Shown here one piece after another: positions 2,923-39,702 of a DNA stretch of 64,000 nucleotides (position 1 is its first letter; each line of letters starts with the position of its first letter). A program made the translations under genes and the position numbers. The DNA comes from Chloroflexota bacterium (GTDB lineage: Bacteria; Chloroflexota; Anaerolineae; DTLA01). Under the pieces are notes generated by a model, which ran no database searches, was not told where the DNA came from, and saw nothing but the letters and a program-made list of their open reading frames with translations. Location of the stretch: the NCBI GenBank assembly GCA_014874485.1, contig JADBJK010000031.1:22532-86531 (forward strand), in the 5' to 3' direction.

Positions 2923-3846
2923 ATGGCTGGACGAAGGCTGTCGGCAATCGGGTACAAGGCTGCCCCGTTGTTCGCGTTTCCGTTCGCCCTGCTCGTGGCT
3001 CCAATCCTCGTCGCCTGCTCGGCCTCGCCCACTCCCACAGCCCTGCCCACAACCAACGGCGCGGCCAAGGTCAACGGCGTCGCCCTGCACTACGAAATCA
3101 CCGGCCAGGGCGAGCCGCTTATCCTCATACAGGGCCTCGGCACGGCCACCTGGCTCTGGTGGAAGCAGGTGCCCGAACTATCCCGCCACTTCCGCGTCAT
3201 CGCCTACGACCTGCGCGGCTCCGGCTGGAGCGACAAACCCGACGAGCCGTACTCCATCCCGATGTTCGCCGACGACCTGGCGGGCCTCATGGACGCGCTG
3301 AAAATCAAGCAGGCCCACATTCTCGGAATCTCGCTGGGGGGCTATGTCGCGCAGGAATTCGCCATTCGCTACCCCGACAGGGTCAAGCGCCTCGTCCTCT
3401 GCTCCACCAGCACCAACGGCCCCAACGCCGTGCCGCCGAGTCCCGACATCATCGTCGCCCTAATGACGCCCGTGGCGGGCAAGGACGACCTGCGCGACCG
3501 CATTGCCCTGTCCCTCAGCCCCGGATACGCCACGGCGCACCCGTCGGATGTGGAGCGGATGATGGCGTGGCGGCTGGACAACCCACAACCTGCCTACGCC
3601 TACAATCGTCAGCTGATGAGCGCCGTGGGCTGGACATCCGAGGGGCGGCTTGGCGAGATCACCATGCCCACGCTGGTGCTGGCCGGGTCCGAGGATCGCG
3701 TGGTGCCGCCGCAAAACGCCGACGTCCTCGCGGCGGGCATCCCCCACGCCGAGAAGGTCATCCTGCAGGGCGCCGGCCATCTCATCAACGTGGAGCAGCC
3801 GGACAAACTCAACAAGGAGGTCATTCGGTTTCTGACATGGAAATGA
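2923..3846 (+). CDS. Alpha/beta hydrolase, predicted lipoprotein
   Basis: Signal/lipobox-like LLVAPILVAC; nucleophile elbow GISLGGYVAQ; C-terminal GAGHLINVEQP. Confidence 0.85.
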   Translation: MAGRRLSAIGYKAAPLFAFPFALLVAPILVACSASPTPTALPTTNGAAKVNGVALHYEITGQGEPLILIQGLGTATWLWWKQVPELSRHFRVIAYDLRGSGWSDKPDEPYSIPMFADDLAGLMDALKIKQAHILGISLGGYVAQEFAIRYPDRVKRLVLCSTSTNGPNAVPPSPDIIVALMTPVAGKDDLRDRIALSLSPGYATAHPSDVERMMAWRLDNPQPAYAYNRQLMSAVGWTSEGRLGEITMPTLVLAGSEDRVVPPQNADVLAAGIPHAEKVILQGAGHLINVEQPDKLNKEVIRFLTWK

Positions 3847-17595: not shown

Positions 17596-17683
17596 TTGTT
17601 CTGTTGGGCGACGTAGCCAAGTGGCAAGGCAGGGGTCTGCAAAACCCCGACCGCGGGTTCAAGTCCCGCCGTCGCCTCCACAA
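17596..17683. repeat. Left 88-bp direct repeat (candidate attL)
   Basis: Identical base-for-base to 21863..21950; flanks differ immediately outside. Confidence 0.95.
17607..17680 (+). tRNA. tRNA-Cys (GCA), first copy, CCA encoded
   Basis: GGCGACG/CGTCGCC; GGGGT-CTGCAAA-ACCCC; TCCA 3' end. Confidence 0.95.
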
Positions 17684-18907: not shown

Positions 18908-19006
18908 GCCGTAAAATGACCTATGGGGGGCGTCCTCATGCGCCCCCCGCCCCTGCTGTGAACGTTAGTCAACGCATAGCCGGTAAACGCGGGGCGCTGC
19001 CACGCA

Positions 19007-19174: not shown

Positions 19175-19825
19175 ATGGACACGTGGAAAGAAACCCATAT
19201 CGTGGAAGGCAAACTTGAAGACCTTGCCCGGTATCTCTTGCGGAAGACGCGCCCCTACTGGCACGTTGACCTGGGCGAGGGCAAAAGCCTGCAGGTTCAG
19301 TGTGCGCGCCCGCGGCTGAACGCGCTGCCCGACCCCGATGATGCCATTTTGGAGATGGAAGCCTTCTTGCTGAAGCCAGACCCCGACAATCCCAACGCCG
19401 CCGTCGCATGGCCGGTAGGGAGCGCCGTGGAGTTTCGCCTGCTGCGAATCACAGACAACCGCACCGAGGTTACCGTGCAATGCCACTACCCGCAATTGAC
19501 CGACCGCGTGCAAGCCTTAATCGCTGCGGTTCTGGAGACGTGGCCCCATCCCGTGCAGAGCGCGGCGCAAAGAGTTGACGCGCCCCGGCCCGAGACCTCG
19601 GAGCCTGCGGTGCATAAGGGCGAAGAGGCAGACTGCCTCGCCGCTATCCGAGAAGGGCCTGATAGAGACATAATCAGATTATGGCGCGAAGGCTATACCG
19701 CCTCTGAAATCGCAGAGCAGAGCGGCTTCGCCAGCAAGACGGTGAGCAACCGCATTTGCGAGTTGCGAAAGACGTTTGGGGATGGCGTGGTGCCACGCCG
19801 CAGGCCTCACAGATGGAAAAACTGA
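19175..19825 (+). CDS. Element-encoded hypothetical with C-terminal helix-turn-helix
   Basis: C-terminal IIRLWREGYTASEIAEQSGFASKTVSNRICELRKTFG is a typical HTH; SD GAGGCGG. Confidence 0.7.
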   Translation: MDTWKETHIVEGKLEDLARYLLRKTRPYWHVDLGEGKSLQVQCARPRLNALPDPDDAILEMEAFLLKPDPDNPNAAVAWPVGSAVEFRLLRITDNRTEVTVQCHYPQLTDRVQALIAAVLETWPHPVQSAAQRVDAPRPETSEPAVHKGEEADCLAAIREGPDRDIIRLWREGYTASEIAEQSGFASKTVSNRICELRKTFGDGVVPRRRPHRWKN

Positions 19826-20125: not shown

Positions 20126-20491
20126 ATGCATGGTACCAACGAGCGGGAGCGCTGTCAAATCTACGCCCAGGGGCGGGTTGTGGGCCACGTCCAGGGCGAC
20201 GTTTTCGTGAAGCGTGTCCGTGGGAGCGTCCACATGCTACGGAAACCCAGGGCCTGGGCGCTGGACTGCCAAAGCCTTGACGATGCCGAGGCCCTCGGAG
20301 CGCGGCAAGTGGAAGTCCACGACACGGAGTCGGGGCTGACCTATCGGGCCTCGGTTGCCCTGATTCGCGCGCGGGGCTTTCAGTTTGACCGCGGCTTCGG
20401 GCGGCAAATCGCCTTGCCGCTTGACCAGTGGAACATGGAGCGGCCAGGTGCGCCGAAGGCTGTGCAGTTGGGCCTTGCCCTGGGAGTGTGA
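20126..20491 (+). CDS. Element-encoded hypothetical protein
   Basis: MHGTNERERCQIYAQGRVVGHVQGDVFVKRVRGSVHMLRKPRAWALDCQ...; SD AGGGGG; overlaps into next gene region. Confidence 0.6.
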   Translation: MHGTNERERCQIYAQGRVVGHVQGDVFVKRVRGSVHMLRKPRAWALDCQSLDDAEALGARQVEVHDTESGLTYRASVALIRARGFQFDRGFGRQIALPLDQWNMERPGAPKAVQLGLALGV

Positions 20492-20495
20492 GGCG

Positions 20496-21173
20496 GTGGG
20501 CGGCGGCAACGGCGCAGGGTGGGTGCGAGTCCCCAAATCGGCGGCCTTTGACAAGCGGCTGTCGTGTACCGAGCGCCTTGTCCTAGTGGCGCTGCTGTCC
20601 TTTGACTTCTCCGACGCGCGGGGCAAGTCCAAAGGCTACTGCTGGCCGTCGGTTGGCACGCTGGCCGAACTTGTCGGACGTTCGCGTCGCACCATTCAGG
20701 CGGCGCTTGCCAGGCTTGAGGCCGTCGGCTACATCCGCGTTGAGCACAACGTCGGAGGCCCAGGTGGGGGAAGTAGCAATCGGTACCACCTTGTGCTGGA
20801 GAGCGACGTGCAGAAAACTGCACCTCGCTATGCGAGCGACGCGCAATTTTCTGCGAGCGACGTGCAGAAAATTGCACCCCCCGACACGCAGAAAATTGCA
20901 CCCGAAGAAGAAGAAGATAGAAGAAGCACAACCGAAGAAGAAGAAACTTACGACCCTCGCATTCGTGATTTTATGGACATCTTGAAAGCGACGGTTGCTC
21001 CGTCCACGTTTGGAGCCTACCTTGCGGATATGAGGGTGTCGGCCTCGGACGGGCTTTTGGTGGTAGCCGAAGCGCATGGCATGGCCGCCACGCGGTTGCG
21101 GCCAAAGGTAGAAAGCGCGGCGAAGCAGGCTGGTTTCGCCGCTGTGGTGTTCGCTGAACAGGCGGCGGGGTAG
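20496..21173 (+). CDS. Replication-initiator-like protein: N-terminal winged HTH, repeat linker, DnaA domain-I-like C-terminus (GTG start inferred)
   Basis: STLAELVGRSRRTIQAALARLEAVGYIRVE wHTH; SDVQKTAP/SDVQKIAP/DTQKIAP linker; C-term ILKATVAPSTFGAYLADMRVSASDGLLVVAEAHGMAATRLRPKVESA. Confidence 0.65.
   Translation: MGGGNGAGWVRVPKSAAFDKRLSCTERLVLVALLSFDFSDARGKSKGYCWPSVGTLAELVGRSRRTIQAALARLEAVGYIRVEHNVGGPGGGSSNRYHLVLESDVQKTAPRYASDAQFSASDVQKIAPPDTQKIAPEEEEDRRSTTEEEETYDPRIRDFMDILKATVAPSTFGAYLADMRVSASDGLLVVAEAHGMAATRLRPKVESAAKQAGFAAVVFAEQAAG
20801..20902. repeat. Four iteron-like repeats (core GCAGAAAAyTGC; second copy inverted) inside the initiator-like gene
   Basis: Cores at 20810-20821, 20843-20854 (reverse), 20864-20875, 20888-20899; followed by purine-rich tract from 20904. 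Confidence 0.75.
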
Positions 21174-21510
21174 AGTTGCGGCCTGTGCGCGCGGGACGGG
21201 AAGGGGACATCCCAGGACGCGGGAAGCCGCCATCCCGGCACCCCGCGCGGGGTAGGGGGGCATCATGCGAGACGAGATGCTGATTTGTAGCCCACAGGGG
21301 GGTTGTGTGTGGCAGTCTTGCGGGCGGGCAAGCCTTCAGTTGGGCCAAAAGCCCAGGCGGGAGACGGCGAAGGGCCGCCCATCTAAACGGCTGAAAAATG
21401 GCCCCTGTGCAACTTCCGACTAGGCGCATTATGTAAATACGTCAAGCCTTGCCGCGTCCTCATGCGCCCGAATGCGGGCGAGTAAGGCCATTGCCCCTAA
21501 ATGCCCCAGA

Positions 21511-21862: not shown

Positions 21863-21950
21863 TTGTTCTGTTGGGCGACGTAGCCAAGTGGCAAGGCAGG
21901 GGTCTGCAAAACCCCGACCGCGGGTTCAAGTCCCGCCGTCGCCTCCACAA
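21863..21950. repeat. Right 88-bp direct repeat (candidate attR)
   Basis: Identical to 17596..17683, offset 4267 bp. Confidence 0.95.
21874..21947 (+). tRNA. tRNA-Cys (GCA), second full copy
   Basis: Identical to 17607..17680. Confidence 0.93.
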
Positions 21951-22074: not shown

Positions 22075-22542
22075 ATGAGCGAGATGCCGAAACCCGGCCA
22101 GGCCGCGCCTGACTTTGAACTGCCGTCGGACCGCGGCGACAAGGTCCGCCTGTCCAACTTCCGAGGCAAGAAAGTCGTCCTGTACTTCTACCCCAAGGAC
22201 ATGACTTCGGGCTGCACCAAAGAAGCCTGCTCGTTCCGCGACAACTATCCCCAGTACGAGGAACAAGGCGCCGTCATCCTGGGCGTCAGCCCGGACCCGC
22301 CCCAAAGCCACGTGCGCTTCAAGAGCAAGTACAATCTCCCCTTCCTGCTCCTATCCGACGAGGATCACAAGGTCGCCGAACAGTACGGCGTCTGGGGCGA
22401 GAAGCAGATGTACGGCCGCGCCTACCAGGGCATCCTGCGCACCACCTTCGTCATTGACGAAGAAGGCGGAATCGCCAAGGTCTTCACCAAGGTTAAACCC
22501 GACGGCCACGGCGAGGAAGTGTTGGGGGCACTGGCCGAATAG
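22075..22542 (+). CDS. bcp: Thioredoxin-dependent peroxiredoxin (BCP-type)
   Basis: PGQAAPDFELPSDRGD...YFYPKDMTSGCTKEACSFRD. Confidence 0.95.
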   Translation: MSEMPKPGQAAPDFELPSDRGDKVRLSNFRGKKVVLYFYPKDMTSGCTKEACSFRDNYPQYEEQGAVILGVSPDPPQSHVRFKSKYNLPFLLLSDEDHKVAEQYGVWGEKQMYGRAYQGILRTTFVIDEEGGIAKVFTKVKPDGHGEEVLGALAE

Positions 22543-26977: not shown

Positions 26978-27019
26978 CAGATGGCATTGCGAGCGAGGGG
27001 AAGCCACCCAGGCCCCATC

Positions 27020-27343
27020 TGTCATTGCGAGCGAAGGGAAGCAATCCCGGCCCCCATCTGTCATGCTGAGCGTAGCGAAGCATCTCGGCTGACGAGATTC
27101 TTCGGCGCTCCGCGCCTCAGAATGACAGTTCGCGGGGATTGCTTCGGGCACTCCGCGCCCTCGCAATGACAAGCCCCCACCTGTCATTGCGAGCGAAGCG
27201 AAGCAATCCCGGCCCCCATCTGTCATGCTGAGCGTAGCGAAGCATCTCGGCTGACGAGATTCTTCGGCGCTCCGCGCCTCAGAATGACAGTTCGCGGGGA
27301 TTGCTTCGGGCACTCCGCGCCCTCGCAATGACAAGCCCCCACC
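27020..27343. repeat. Tandem duplication of a 162-bp unit made of palindromic dispersed repeats
   Basis: Units 27020-27181 and 27182-27343 differ at one base (gaaGGGaag vs gaaGCGaag); third partial unit starts 27344. Confidence 0.9.
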
Positions 27344-27497
27344 TGTCATTGCGAGCGAAGCGAAGCCACCCAGGCCCACGTGCGGCGCACCTCGGAGGTG
27401 CGTCGCACGTGCACGTCATTGTGAGCGAGACGTGCGTCCAGGAATCACCGCAGCGAAGCGCCAGGCCGCGCGGCAGGCCCGAAGCCACGCAGCCTGC

Positions 27498-29921: not shown

Positions 29922-32900
29922 ATGGGTGAGAATCGCGATTTTCTGTTCAGGGGGCCCCTCGCCTCGCTGGACCCCGACGTGCAGGCCCTTATTGACCTGG
30001 AGCAAGAGCGCCAGTCCCGCCGCATCATCCTGATCCCCTCGGAGAGCATGGCCCCGGCGGCTGTGCGCGAGGCCCTATCTTCCGAGTTCTCCCACATCTA
30101 CGCGGAGGGCTATCCCCCGACCCGCATGACGCGGGAGCCCGAAGACCTCGTGCTGGACTACGAGCACCAACTGGCTTACTACCGACGATATGCCGACCGT
30201 CGGTTCTACAAGGGCGCGGATTATGTAAACTTTGTGGAAACCCTGGCCCAGCGACGGGCCGCCGCCTGCTTCGCCAACGACCGCGTGCGCGCCGACCAAA
30301 TCTACGCGAACGTGCAGCCCCTGTCGGGAGCCGCCGCCAACAACGCCATCTACGAGGCGTTCGTGCGGCCCGGCGAAACCGTCATGGGCATGAACCTGAT
30401 GCACGGCGGCCACCTCACCCACGGCAGCCAGTTCAACCGCTCGGGCAAGCAGTACCGCATCGTCTCCTACACCGTGGACCCCAAAACCGAACGCCTGGAC
30501 TACGACGCCATCCGCGAGTTGGCGCTCCAGCACCGCCCGAAGATGATCATCGCGGGCTACACGTCCTACCCCTGGGCGCCGGACTGGCAAAAGTTCCGCG
30601 AGATCGCCGACGCCGTGGGCGCGATCCTCATGGCCGACATCGCCCACACGGCAGGCATGGCCATCGCCGGGGTCTATCCCAGCCCGGTGGGCATCGCCGA
30701 CGTTACCGTATTCACCACGCACAAGACCATCTGCGGGCCGCGCGCCGCCGTCATCCTCACCACCTCGGAGGAGCACGCCACCAAGATTGACAGCGCCGTG
30801 TTCCCAGGCGAACAGGGCGGGCCTCACGTCAACACGTTCGCGGCGCTGGCCGTGGCGTTCAAACTGGCCCAGACGCCCCAGTTCCACGCCCTGCAGAAGC
30901 AGATTGTCGTCAATGCGCGGGCGCTGGCCCAGAGTTTGCAGGATCGCGGCCTGCGCCTGGCCTACGGCGGCACCGACACCCACCTGCTGCTCGTGGACCT
31001 CAAATCCGTGAAGTCGGCCAACGGCGAGTTCCCACGAGGCGAGGTGGCCGCGCGCCTGCTGGAAATCTGCGGCATCATCGTCAACAAGAACACCATCCCC
31101 GGCGACGACATCACCGCCCTCGCCAGCGGGATTCGGCTCGGCACGCCCTGGGTTACCCAGCGGGGCATGCGCGAGCAGGACATGGACCAGATTGCCGACT
31201 TCATCTTCCGCGTCGTGCGGGAGATTCGCCCGTTCCAGTACCTGGGACTGAGCGGCGTGCTGCCGCGCGGGAAGGCACCGTTCGCGCTCCTGCGCCAGGT
31301 GCGGCGCGAGGTGGACGAGTTTGCGGCGCGGTTTGAACCGAAGACCGAGCAGCGCTCCGCCTACCCCCACTATCACCTGCCCGCGGCGCAGAATGCCCCC
31401 GCCTGGCCGACGCAGGGCCGCCAGGCCGACGCCGCAACCGCCGCGCGCGCCCTGGCCGAAGGCGCAGTCATCGTTGACCCATCGCAGTTCAGCGTCCTCA
31501 TGGTGCGCGGCACCCGAGCCCATGCTTTCCTCCAAGAGGCCACCACCGCCAACCTGGCCGCGCTGGGGCCCGGCCAGATGGCGCACACCGCGCTGCTGGA
31601 CGGCGACGGGCAAGTGCTGGATGATGTGGTCGTCGTGCGCCTTGCCCCCACCCCGCGCGGCGAGGACAGGTACTACGTGCTCGCCAACGCCACAAACGCC
31701 GACACGGTCAAGGACTGGCTCCGCGCGCTGAGCGATGGGTACGTGCTTTTTGACAAGCGCGACGTGCTCCGCAAGGTGCAGGGCCCCGCCATCGTGGCCG
31801 ATGCCACCAATGAGGTAGCCGATGAGGAAGCGCGGCTGCTGGCGATTGCAGTGGTCGGGCCGGCGGCGTCGGCGCTCCTGAAAAAGACGCTGGCCCTGGC
31901 CGACGTGGGCGGCAACGGCGTCGTGGAAACGCAGGTCGCGGGCAAGTCGCTGCTGGTCGCTCGGATGCCCTCGTTGCGCGATGGCTTCCTCTGCATCGGC
32001 AGCCCCGACGCCCTGCTGGCCCTGGAGACCGGCCTCACGGGCGCGGGCGCCGTCGCGGGCGGCAGCGACGCATGGGCAGCGGTGCGGCGTTCGGCGGGGC
32101 TTCCCGTGTACGACCAGGCGTCGCCCCGTCCCAGCGGCCTGGCCCTGCTCCACGGCGGCCACGAGCGCCTGTTTGACCTGCGCAAGCCCTACTTCGTGGG
32201 ACAGGATTCCCTCGCCGCCTCGGCCCCTGTGGAGAGCCTGCCCGAATTCGTGTGGGAATGGCGGGAGGAAGAGACCCTGAAGCGCACGCCGCTCTACGAG
32301 GAGCACAAGAAGCGCACGCGCAAGTTGATCCCCTTCGCCGGATGGGAGATGCCCGTCTGGTACACCAGCGTGGGCGAGGAGCACGCCGCCGTTCGCAAGG
32401 CCGCGGGCCTGTTTGACGTGGCCCACATGGGCGTGCTAGAGGTCTCCGGGCCGCACGCCGCCGCGTTCCTGGATGCCGTGGCGTCCAACTACGTGCGCTG
32501 GCTAGAGCCGGGCCAGTCGCAGTACGCCTACCTGCTGGACACTGACGGCAACGTGCTGGACGACATCATCATCTATTGCCTGGGCCGCGAGCGGTACATG
32601 GTCGTGGTGAACGCCGCCAACGCGGAGAAAGATTGGGCGTGGCTGAACGCCGTGAATGAGGGGCGCGTGCTCATTGACCGCAACCGACCCTACGTGCGGG
32701 TTGAGGCCCCCGCCATCCTGCGCGACCTCAAAGACCCGCGCTGGGGCAAGGATTGCAGAGTGGACCTGGCGCTGCAAGGCCCGGCGTCCCTCGCCATCCT
32801 GCAGACGCTGGCCCGCGACGCCCGACAAGCCACGGAGTTGGCCCATATCCGCCGCACGGAGTTGATAGAGACGACCCTGGCGGGCATTCCGCTGGTCGTG

Positions 32901-33530
32901 TCGCGGACGGGCTACACGGGCGAGCCGGTGGGGTTTGAACTGTTCGTCCACCCCGATGAGGCCGTGCGCCTGTGGAACCTGCTGCTGGAGAAGGGCGAGC
33001 CGTTCGGGCTGAAGCCTGCCGGCCTAGCGGCGCGCGACTCCACCCGCATTGAGGCGGGCTTGCCCCTGTACGGGCACGAGTTGGCCGGCCCCTACAACAT
33101 CACGCCGATTGAGGCCGGCTTTGAGCCTTATGTCAAGTATCACAAGCCGTTCTTCGTGGGGCGTGAGGCCATCCTGCGCCACTCGGCGGAAGCCGCCAAC
33201 ACCATCGTCCGGTTCCGCGTCAACTCGCCCAACGCCCGCGCTTTCCGGGGCCACGAACCGGTCGTGAACAAGCGCGGCCAGTACATCGGGCGCGTTACCA
33301 GTTGCACCCTGGTGGGCGAGACCCAAATCGGCATGGCGCTGGTGGACAAACGCTACGCCCAGGAGGGCACAGAGATCGCCATCTTCCCGACGGCCGCCGC
33401 GAAGAGCGACAAGCCGCTGTCTCTCGCCGAACTGGAGCGCGGGGACCAGGTCCTGCTGCCCGAATGGTGCACCGTCTTGGCTCGGTTCCCCAGGCTGGGC
33501 ATGCCCGTGGCCCCTGACGCCAACGAGTAG
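29922..33530 (+). CDS. Serine hydroxymethyltransferase fused to a GcvT-like domain and a GcvT (aminomethyltransferase) domain
   Basis: SHMT: PSESMAPAAVREALSSEFSHIYAEGYP, ADIAHTAGMAIAG, FTTHKTICGPRAA; GcvT: LIPFAGWEMPVWYTSVGEEHAAVRKAAGLFDVAHMGVLEVSG, ARDSTRIEAGLPLYGHEL. Confidence 0.9.
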   Translation: MGENRDFLFRGPLASLDPDVQALIDLEQERQSRRIILIPSESMAPAAVREALSSEFSHIYAEGYPPTRMTREPEDLVLDYEHQLAYYRRYADRRFYKGADYVNFVETLAQRRAAACFANDRVRADQIYANVQPLSGAAANNAIYEAFVRPGETVMGMNLMHGGHLTHGSQFNRSGKQYRIVSYTVDPKTERLDYDAIRELALQHRPKMIIAGYTSYPWAPDWQKFREIADAVGAILMADIAHTAGMAIAGVYPSPVGIADVTVFTTHKTICGPRAAVILTTSEEHATKIDSAVFPGEQGGPHVNTFAALAVAFKLAQTPQFHALQKQIVVNARALAQSLQDRGLRLAYGGTDTHLLLVDLKSVKSANGEFPRGEVAARLLEICGIIVNKNTIPGDDITALASGIRLGTPWVTQRGMREQDMDQIADFIFRVVREIRPFQYLGLSGVLPRGKAPFALLRQVRREVDEFAARFEPKTEQRSAYPHYHLPAAQNAPAWPTQGRQADAATAARALAEGAVIVDPSQFSVLMVRGTRAHAFLQEATTANLAALGPGQMAHTALLDGDGQVLDDVVVVRLAPTPRGEDRYYVLANATNADTVKDWLRALSDGYVLFDKRDVLRKVQGPAIVADATNEVADEEARLLAIAVVGPAASALLKKTLALADVGGNGVVETQVAGKSLLVARMPSLRDGFLCIGSPDALLALETGLTGAGAVAGGSDAWAAVRRSAGLPVYDQASPRPSGLALLHGGHERLFDLRKPYFVGQDSLAASAPVESLPEFVWEWREEETLKRTPLYEEHKKRTRKLIPFAGWEMPVWYTSVGEEHAAVRKAAGLFDVAHMGVLEVSGPHAAAFLDAVASNYVRWLEPGQSQYAYLLDTDGNVLDDIIIYCLGRERYMVVVNAANAEKDWAWLNAVNEGRVLIDRNRPYVRVEAPAILRDLKDPRWGKDCRVDLALQGPASLAILQTLARDARQATELAHIRRTELIETTLAGIPLVVSRTGYTGEPVGFELFVHPDEAVRLWNLLLEKGEPFGLKPAGLAARDSTRIEAGLPLYGHELAGPYNITPIEAGFEPYVKYHKPFFVGREAILRHSAEAANTIVRFRVNSPNARAFRGHEPVVNKRGQYIGRVTSCTLVGETQIGMALVDKRYAQEGTEIAIFPTAAAKSDKPLSLAELERGDQVLLPEWCTVLARFPRLGMPVAPDANE

Positions 33531-39281: not shown

Positions 39282-39702
39282 TGTCATTGCGAGCGAAGCG
39301 AAGCAATCTCACGCGCCATCTGTCATGCTGAGCGAAGCGAGGCATCAGCGAAGCGAAGCATCAGCGAAGCGAAGCATCTCGGTTGACGAGATTCTTCGCG
39401 GCTTCGCCGCTCAGAATGACAGGCTGCAGTGATTGCTTCGGGCGCTTCGCGCCCTCGCAATGACAACGGCTACCCGTCATTGCGAAGCGAAGCATCTCGG
39501 TTGACGAGATTCTTCGCGGCTTCGCCGCTCAGAATGACAGGCTGCAGTGATTGCTTCGGGCGCTTCGCGCCCTCGCAATGACAACGGCTACCCGTCATTG
39601 CGAAGCGAAGCATCTCGTTGACGAGATTCTTCGGCCCTCTGCGCCTCAGTAGGGACAATTCATGAATTGTCCCTACGGGCGCTGCGCGCCCTCGCAATGA
39701 CA
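39282..39702. repeat. Composite repeat island: nested palindromes, 118-bp tandem units and a 28-bp perfect palindrome
   Basis: 118-bp units at 39364-39481 and 39482-39599 with third partial; GTAGGGACAATTCATGAATTGTCCCTAC at 39649-39676. Confidence 0.9.

Follow-up and report, generated by a model that had tools for sequence, protein, structure and literature searches.

A probable lambda-ori-like replication origin inside the initiator gene of a small tRNA-Cys-integrated element from an Anaerolineae bacterium

The gene at 20496-21173 of the window (the whole 64-kb stretch of DNA that we analysed) belongs to an integrative element of 4,267 bp, which sits in a tRNA-Cys gene of an Anaerolineae-class bacterium. 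We believe that this gene, which we call rep, probably encodes the initiator of the element, and that a lambda-ori-like replication origin is located inside rep itself. An in-gene origin of the lambda O type had been suggested in the earlier note on this DNA, and we found support for it in a match to O-like protein families, in repeats that are kept at the DNA level, in the weakest duplex of the element directly adjoining them, and in a fold that resembles DnaA domain I at the end of the protein. The coordinates of the features are collected in Table 1.

Table 1. Features of the integrated element, in window coordinates.
Feature	Position	Strand	Remarks
attL, left end, 88-bp direct repeat	17596..17683	+	complete tRNA-Cys at 17607-17680; 88/88 identical to 21863-21950
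Tyrosine integrase, 370 aa	17795..18907	+	Pfam Phage_integrase 1.4e-20; PHROG 1 integrase 1.9e-69
ORF3, C-terminal helix-turn-helix, probable regulator	19175..19825	+	start codon uncertain; weak, sub-cut-off HTH_28/HTH_23 matches
ORF4, conserved gene directly before rep	20126..20491	+	tblastn relatives
rep, probable initiator, 225 aa	20496..21173	+	wHTH aa 21-80; linker encoded by the putative origin, aa ~103-150; C-terminal DnaA-domain-I-like domain
Iteron 1	20808..20823	+	GTGCA-GAAAAC-TGCAC
Iteron 2	20841..20856	-	GCGCA-ATTTTC-TGCGA (on + strand), core inverted; encodes AQFSA instead of VQKIAP
Iteron 3	20862..20877	+	GTGCA-GAAAAT-TGCAC
Iteron 4	20886..20901	+	ACGCA-GAAAAT-TGCAC
Putative DNA-unwinding element (DUE), purine-rich tract	20904..20953	+	least stable 50 bp of the element
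DnaA-domain-I-like C-terminal domain, aa 151-225	20946..21170	+	single-sequence AlphaFold, PDB fold matches, profile score
attR, right end, second 88-bp copy	21863..21950	+	complete tRNA-Cys at 21874-21947

The element and its insertion site

The element is flanked by perfect 88-bp duplications of tRNA-Cys, and a tRNA-Cys was called in both copies. Two congeners (G001 and G002) have an empty site, and their similarity to the window ends exactly at 17683. In G002 a tRNA-Phe-Gly-Cys cluster runs straight into a peroxiredoxin gene, and the sequence to the right of attR continues as in this empty site, into the peroxiredoxin gene at 22075. Because the congeners match up to the end of the left repeat and the G002 cluster is uninterrupted, we conclude that the 4,267-bp element was inserted at tRNA-Cys. 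We found everything that marks a tRNA-integrating element, namely att repeats that span the tRNA, a tyrosine integrase at one end, and an empty site in relatives. The earlier note had overlooked this setting.

Two further observations concern the ends. The native hairpin and T-run that follow tRNA-Cys in the empty site are now left behind the right copy only (17683/17684 and 21951), and therefore transcription of the tRNA operon may continue into the integrase gene. There is also an exact 16-nt direct repeat, GCGTCCTCATGCGCCC, at 18930-18945 (just 3' of the integrase gene) and at 21454-21469 (before the right end), and the two copies are possible integrase arm sites.

The gene content of the element is a tyrosine integrase, a probable HTH regulator, the conserved ORF4 and the initiator gene rep. 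The integrase has relatives with 36-58% identity in other genomes of the class. ORF4 has tblastn relatives with 42-58% identity in full-length matches, which stand upstream of the replication genes in three related elements (L096, L098 and L102); it had no PHROG or NCBIfam match, and the longer form of the ORF had no Pfam match. For ORF3 there was no NCBIfam match. Among the viral contigs, we found no relatives of ORF3, ORF4 or the integrase, the last of which was queried singly. The Pfam and PHROG matches of the four ORFs included no relaxase, and no terminase was recognised in the element. When compared with PICI-like elements, the element has int and a rep with its putative ori, and no recognised phage-packaging gene. 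The ORF list holds no plausible gene for a lambda P-type loader between 21173 and attR.

It is unlikely that we are looking at a decaying remnant, in which the repeats mark a former origin and the element no longer moves or replicates. The failure to recognise a relaxase or terminase would suit a remnant, as would the absence of the element from both congeners searched, and an assembly shows no excised form; but the frames of the integrase, ORF4 and rep are all open, the att repeats have stayed identical over their full 88 positions, and the iteron arms are intact. The element may well be mobile at present.

Elsewhere in the window, a single 1202-aa ORF (29922-33530) combines serine hydroxymethyltransferase with two GCV_T (aminomethyltransferase) stretches, which may be either a genuine fusion or a product of the assembly. 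Tandem arrays with periods of 162 bp and 118 bp are present at 26985-27377 and 39331-39633; these are 97-99% identical and are based on the motif GCGAAGCGAAGCA(A)TC.

Repeats and weak duplex inside rep

The core GCAGAAAAYTGC has exactly four copies in the window, at 20810+, 20843-, 20864+ and 20888+. The earlier note had listed four core copies at these positions, including the inverted one, as well as longer embedding units, GAGCGACGTGCAGAAAAYTGCACC; our exact search of the 64 kb agrees with the first and the longer units are present as described. It had also pointed to a purine-rich tract straight after the repeats, and we counted 38 purines in the 43 nt at 20904-20946, with no other such 43-nt stretch in the 64 kb.

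We describe the iterons as four 16-bp hyphenated dyads inside rep (20808-20901) with the consensus GTGCA-GAAAAY-TGCAC, where arms of GYGCA/TGCRC surround a 6-bp A/T-rich spacer. The inversion of iteron 2 is confined to the core, and its flank GAGCGAC is still direct. When we searched the whole 3.74-Mb genome with the extended motif, the good matches were these copies only. Others had two mismatches, and the genome-wide totals were close to those of a reversed-pattern control, which we take as background. There were no further dyad matches in the 4.2-kb element. The window had 28 matches to DnaA boxes where 27 were expected, and we rejected a dependence on them; the near-match TTATGGACA at 20971 stands alone.

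By nearest-neighbour energies, the 50-bp window that starts at 20904 is the weakest among all 4,130 in the element (rank 0), and it begins 2 nt past the last repeat unit. Of 500 synonymous shuffles, 481 were more stable than it. All eight Glu codons in the tract are GAA, a codon with a usage of 40% in the other genes of the element and 29% in nearby host genes. We do not accept the position of the DUE as proof by itself. In most HTH_36 ORFs the weakest part is the linker, with or without detectable repeats, and because linkers without a significant repeat cluster also hold the weakest stretch, the position alone is weak evidence.

We considered whether the dyads could be operators, at which Rep or another regulator represses or blocks transcription through rep, with the origin elsewhere in the element. 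The wHTH proteins are often regulators, dimeric repressors suit palindromic sites, and the wHTH of Rep also gives weak Pfam matches of the GntR/MarR type. However, the sites lie 310 bp into rep and not at a promoter, and an origin explains better why four phased copies adjoin the weakest duplex of the element. The family matches of Rep are to initiators, and the layout recurs in lambda and in a related element, L100 (discussed in a later section). We judge the operator explanation quite unlikely, although the two roles do not exclude each other and an initiator could also autoregulate.

We also looked at what the coding sequence by itself would produce. Within rep there are 14 direct and 3 inverted exact 12-mer pairs, against means of 0.8-1.0 direct and 0.02-0.05 inverted in synonymous shuffles and draws. 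The direct count was reached in 0 of 400 of these and the inverted count in 1 of 400; in a second run, both were reached in 0 of 200. Four sites in the linker appeared in 14 of 20,000 synonymous redraws with the codon usage of the element, and in 5 of 20,000 with that of the host. A single inverted copy with at most one mismatch was not rare in the redraws (12% with element usage and 5% with host usage), so the weight rests on the full set of four sites. The direct copies encode VQKIAP or VQKTAP, and all three use the rare alanine codon GCA, which has a usage of 6-10%. Repeats conserved only as amino acids would have spoken against the reading of the earlier note, and what the redraws and shuffles show is constraint on the DNA. 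Judged from its sequence, rep has repeats that are constrained at the DNA level, beyond the constraint of coding. Phylogenetic footprinting of the iterons had no material to work with, as the searches of viral contigs and genome contigs yielded no close relative of Rep.

It is highly improbable, and already disfavoured, that the repeats serve the protein as a repeated VQKIAP-type linker, with the likeness of the DNA a by-product of recent in-frame duplication: the spacings of 33, 21 and 24 are each a multiple of 3, the three direct copies give similar peptides and repetitive linkers are common among HTH_36 proteins, but the inverted copy has the same DNA motif and a different peptide, the rare GCA recurs in three of three, so few of the redraws (5-14 of 20,000) have four sites, and similar dyads in lambda and in L028, L048 and L079 encode unrelated peptides.

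The Rep protein and a proposed mechanism

The N-terminus of Rep matches Pfam HTH_36 (1.3e-12), PHROG 270 replication initiation (4e-18), and the O-like PHROGs 391, 678, 8540 and 345 (best 7.8e-17); the wHTH region also has a weak RP-C match in Pfam. The earlier note had likened the layout, with its N-terminal wHTH, to that of lambda O, and the match to PHROG families named "replication initiation (O-like)" supports this. It had also called for a comparison of the C-terminus with DnaA domain I, and we found the two to be alike by fold and, more weakly, by profile. Rep had no Pfam match to a dedicated lambda-O family, with only HTH families at E <= 1, and none to RepA_N.

The structure model of full-length Rep hit generic wHTH and MarR-type entries in the PDB, with RepA-type initiators among them. 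As the linker was too poorly modelled there, we modelled the C-terminus separately. A single-sequence AlphaFold model of the C-terminal 75 aa has a pLDDT of 82.6 and the order H-H-E-E-H-E, or alpha-alpha-beta-beta-alpha-beta. With Foldseek, the PDB entries of DnaA domain I ranked 1 (2JMP), 2-3 (4TPS), 10 and 18 (2WP0) and 22 (2E0G), with a modest best E-value of 0.025 and with unrelated folds interspersed and close behind. There was no match to Pfam DnaA_N in the Rep protein of the window. In hhalign, the single-sequence C-terminus had only 25% probability against DnaA domain I; the same profile score exceeds those of 200 out of 200 shuffles and of unrelated control domains. A profile of four sequences that includes the Rep C-terminus scored 98.7% against DnaA_N, which is mainly due to the other members. 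Elsewhere in the phylum, a Pfam DnaA_N tail is joined to HTH_36 in three proteins, two of them above the cut-off (L033 and L044) and one just below (L043), so the pairing of HTH_36 with DnaA_N recurs.

We propose that the integrase would first excise the element. Rep would then bind the four iterons with its N-terminal winged helix, presumably as dimers since the sites are dyads, and these dimers would form an O-some-like complex next to which the tract at 20904-20953 would melt. The DnaA-I-like tail of Rep would then recruit the host replicative helicase, either directly or via the host DnaA or loader, and in this would take the place of lambda P. The domain I of E. coli DnaA binds the helicase, whereas that of B. 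subtilis does not seem to (PMC5448010). With recruitment built into Rep, the element could do without a loader gene, and none was recognised beside rep.

Related elements and known systems

The integrase search led to related elements of ~4-9 kb at other tRNA genes of the class (L095-L102). The integrase is common to all of them and ORF4 is often present, and their replication genes differ. By Pfam these are an AAA_25 ATPase in L096 and L099, a Prim-Pol in L102 and a wHTH in L100, and the others are without a Pfam assignment. L097 has a terminase-small-subunit-like gene (3097-3678, minus strand; PHROG 2538, 1.1e-9), which is a hint that some sister elements are phage satellites or prophage remnants.

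L100 is an element from the same class that has 97-bp repeats and an integrase 47% identical to that of the window. It resembles the window element in this related integrase, in its tRNA integration, in dyad iterons within a wHTH rep, and in the weakest duplex that comes after them. Its HTH_36 rep gene has four dyads at a spacing of 33/21/21, of which three are identical 21-bp copies and one is a variant, and then the least stable 50 bp of the L100 element (rank 0/4605). L100 differs in its tRNA-Arg target, in its dyad sequence, which is unrelated to the window iterons although the spacing is similar, and in its C-terminal domain, for which profile comparison found no resemblance to DnaA domain I. 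On the evidence of these sequences, L100 appears to be an independent replicate of the in-gene origin layout.

We surveyed 33 loci, namely HTH_36-type ORFs together with the window rep, the L100 rep and lambda O, and made 100 synonymous shuffles of each. Repeat clusters that no shuffle reached were present in 16 loci, which are the window rep, 13 HTH_36-type ORFs, the L100 rep and lambda O. In 13 of the 16, no more than 60 bp separate the end of the cluster from the start of the least stable 50 bp of the ORF, a co-location that is partly a property of the linker because the linker is also weakest in most ORFs without a cluster. We also saw striking dyads or inverted repeats, for example GGTGTCACGGTGACACC and CCGTCACCATGACGG, in the linkers of five HTH_36 initiators of the phylum (L028, L048, L079, L050 and L027), and we regard these as candidate in-gene origins.

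Origins within initiator genes are known from lambda O (PMC3985674), SPP1 gp38 (PMC6316719), RepA_N of pSK41 (PMC5703833) and RepC (PMC3155836). Like lambda O and ori-lambda (PMC3985674), rep has four dyad iterons with A-rich spacers in the linker that follows the wHTH, inside the initiator gene, and an A-rich, purine-rich weak duplex directly 3' of them on the coding strand. In our lambda control (NC_001416 39034-39118), each iteron was a dyad with an A-rich spacer between its arms, and 5 nt after iteron 4 came the start of the least stable 50 bp of gene O. The window differs from lambda in the sequence of its iterons, in their spacing (33/21/24, where that of lambda is 20/24/23 and not in-frame), and in the DnaA-I-like C-terminus of Rep. 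We did not class it as a lambda O-P system because there is no adjacent lambda P-like loader gene and no match to a dedicated lambda-O Pfam family.

The RepA_N plasmid pSK41 has four Rep boxes in the centre of rep, and its initiator has a DNA-binding N-terminus, a dispensable linker encoded by the origin, and a C-terminal recruitment domain (PMC5703833), all of which are similar to the arrangement here. However, RepA_N and DnaD-like domains belong to pSK41, while Rep lacks a RepA_N match in Pfam and its C-terminus is alpha/beta by model and not all-helical like the DnaD-like C-terminus of RepA_N. The SPP1 initiator gp38 also has its binding sites within its own gene (oriL), where direct repeats are accompanied by an AT-rich DUE, but it requires a phage loader, gp39, and a phage helicase, gp40 (PMC6316719). 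The oriV of repABC plasmids is likewise within the initiator gene, repC, where silent changes in an A+T-rich region abolish replication; unlike in the window, no iterons were found in repC (PMC3155836). The HTH_36 plasmid Reps of Paracoccus share the Pfam wHTH family and have iteron-like repeats, whereas the available part of that source (PMC3832669) reports neither repeats within rep nor a DnaA-I tail.

In the open-access literature that we searched, there was no description of an initiator that fuses HTH_36 to DnaA_N and carries an internal origin, which is not proof of novelty. Origins inside initiator genes are already known and what is new, as far as this literature shows, is the DnaA-I-like tail on a minimal tRNA-integrated element.

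Such origins are textbook knowledge for lambda and some plasmids, but their discovery has mostly concerned single replicons. The layout predicted here belongs to an element that is among the smallest of the tRNA-integrated kind, from a class whose mobile elements have been little studied, and the DnaA-I-like tail makes a testable claim about the source of the element's helicase. A bolder idea, which we hold to be doubtful, is that the borrowed DnaA domain I is an adaptor. Rep bound to the iterons would either pair with host DnaA through domain I dimerisation or capture the helicase directly, with no need for a loader gene, and replication of the element would be coupled to host initiation or compete with it. 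The half with the wHTH and origin and the recruitment tail would then be exchanged independently across the small tRNA-integrated elements of the class, which would make these elements plug-and-play replicons. The screen (a wHTH gene, a DNA-level repeat cluster, an adjoining weak duplex, and a synonymous-shuffle control) flags about half of the HTH_36 initiators that we examined. It could point to candidate origins in many phages and elements that have yet to be studied, and could supply small replicons for work on the genetically intractable Anaerolineae.
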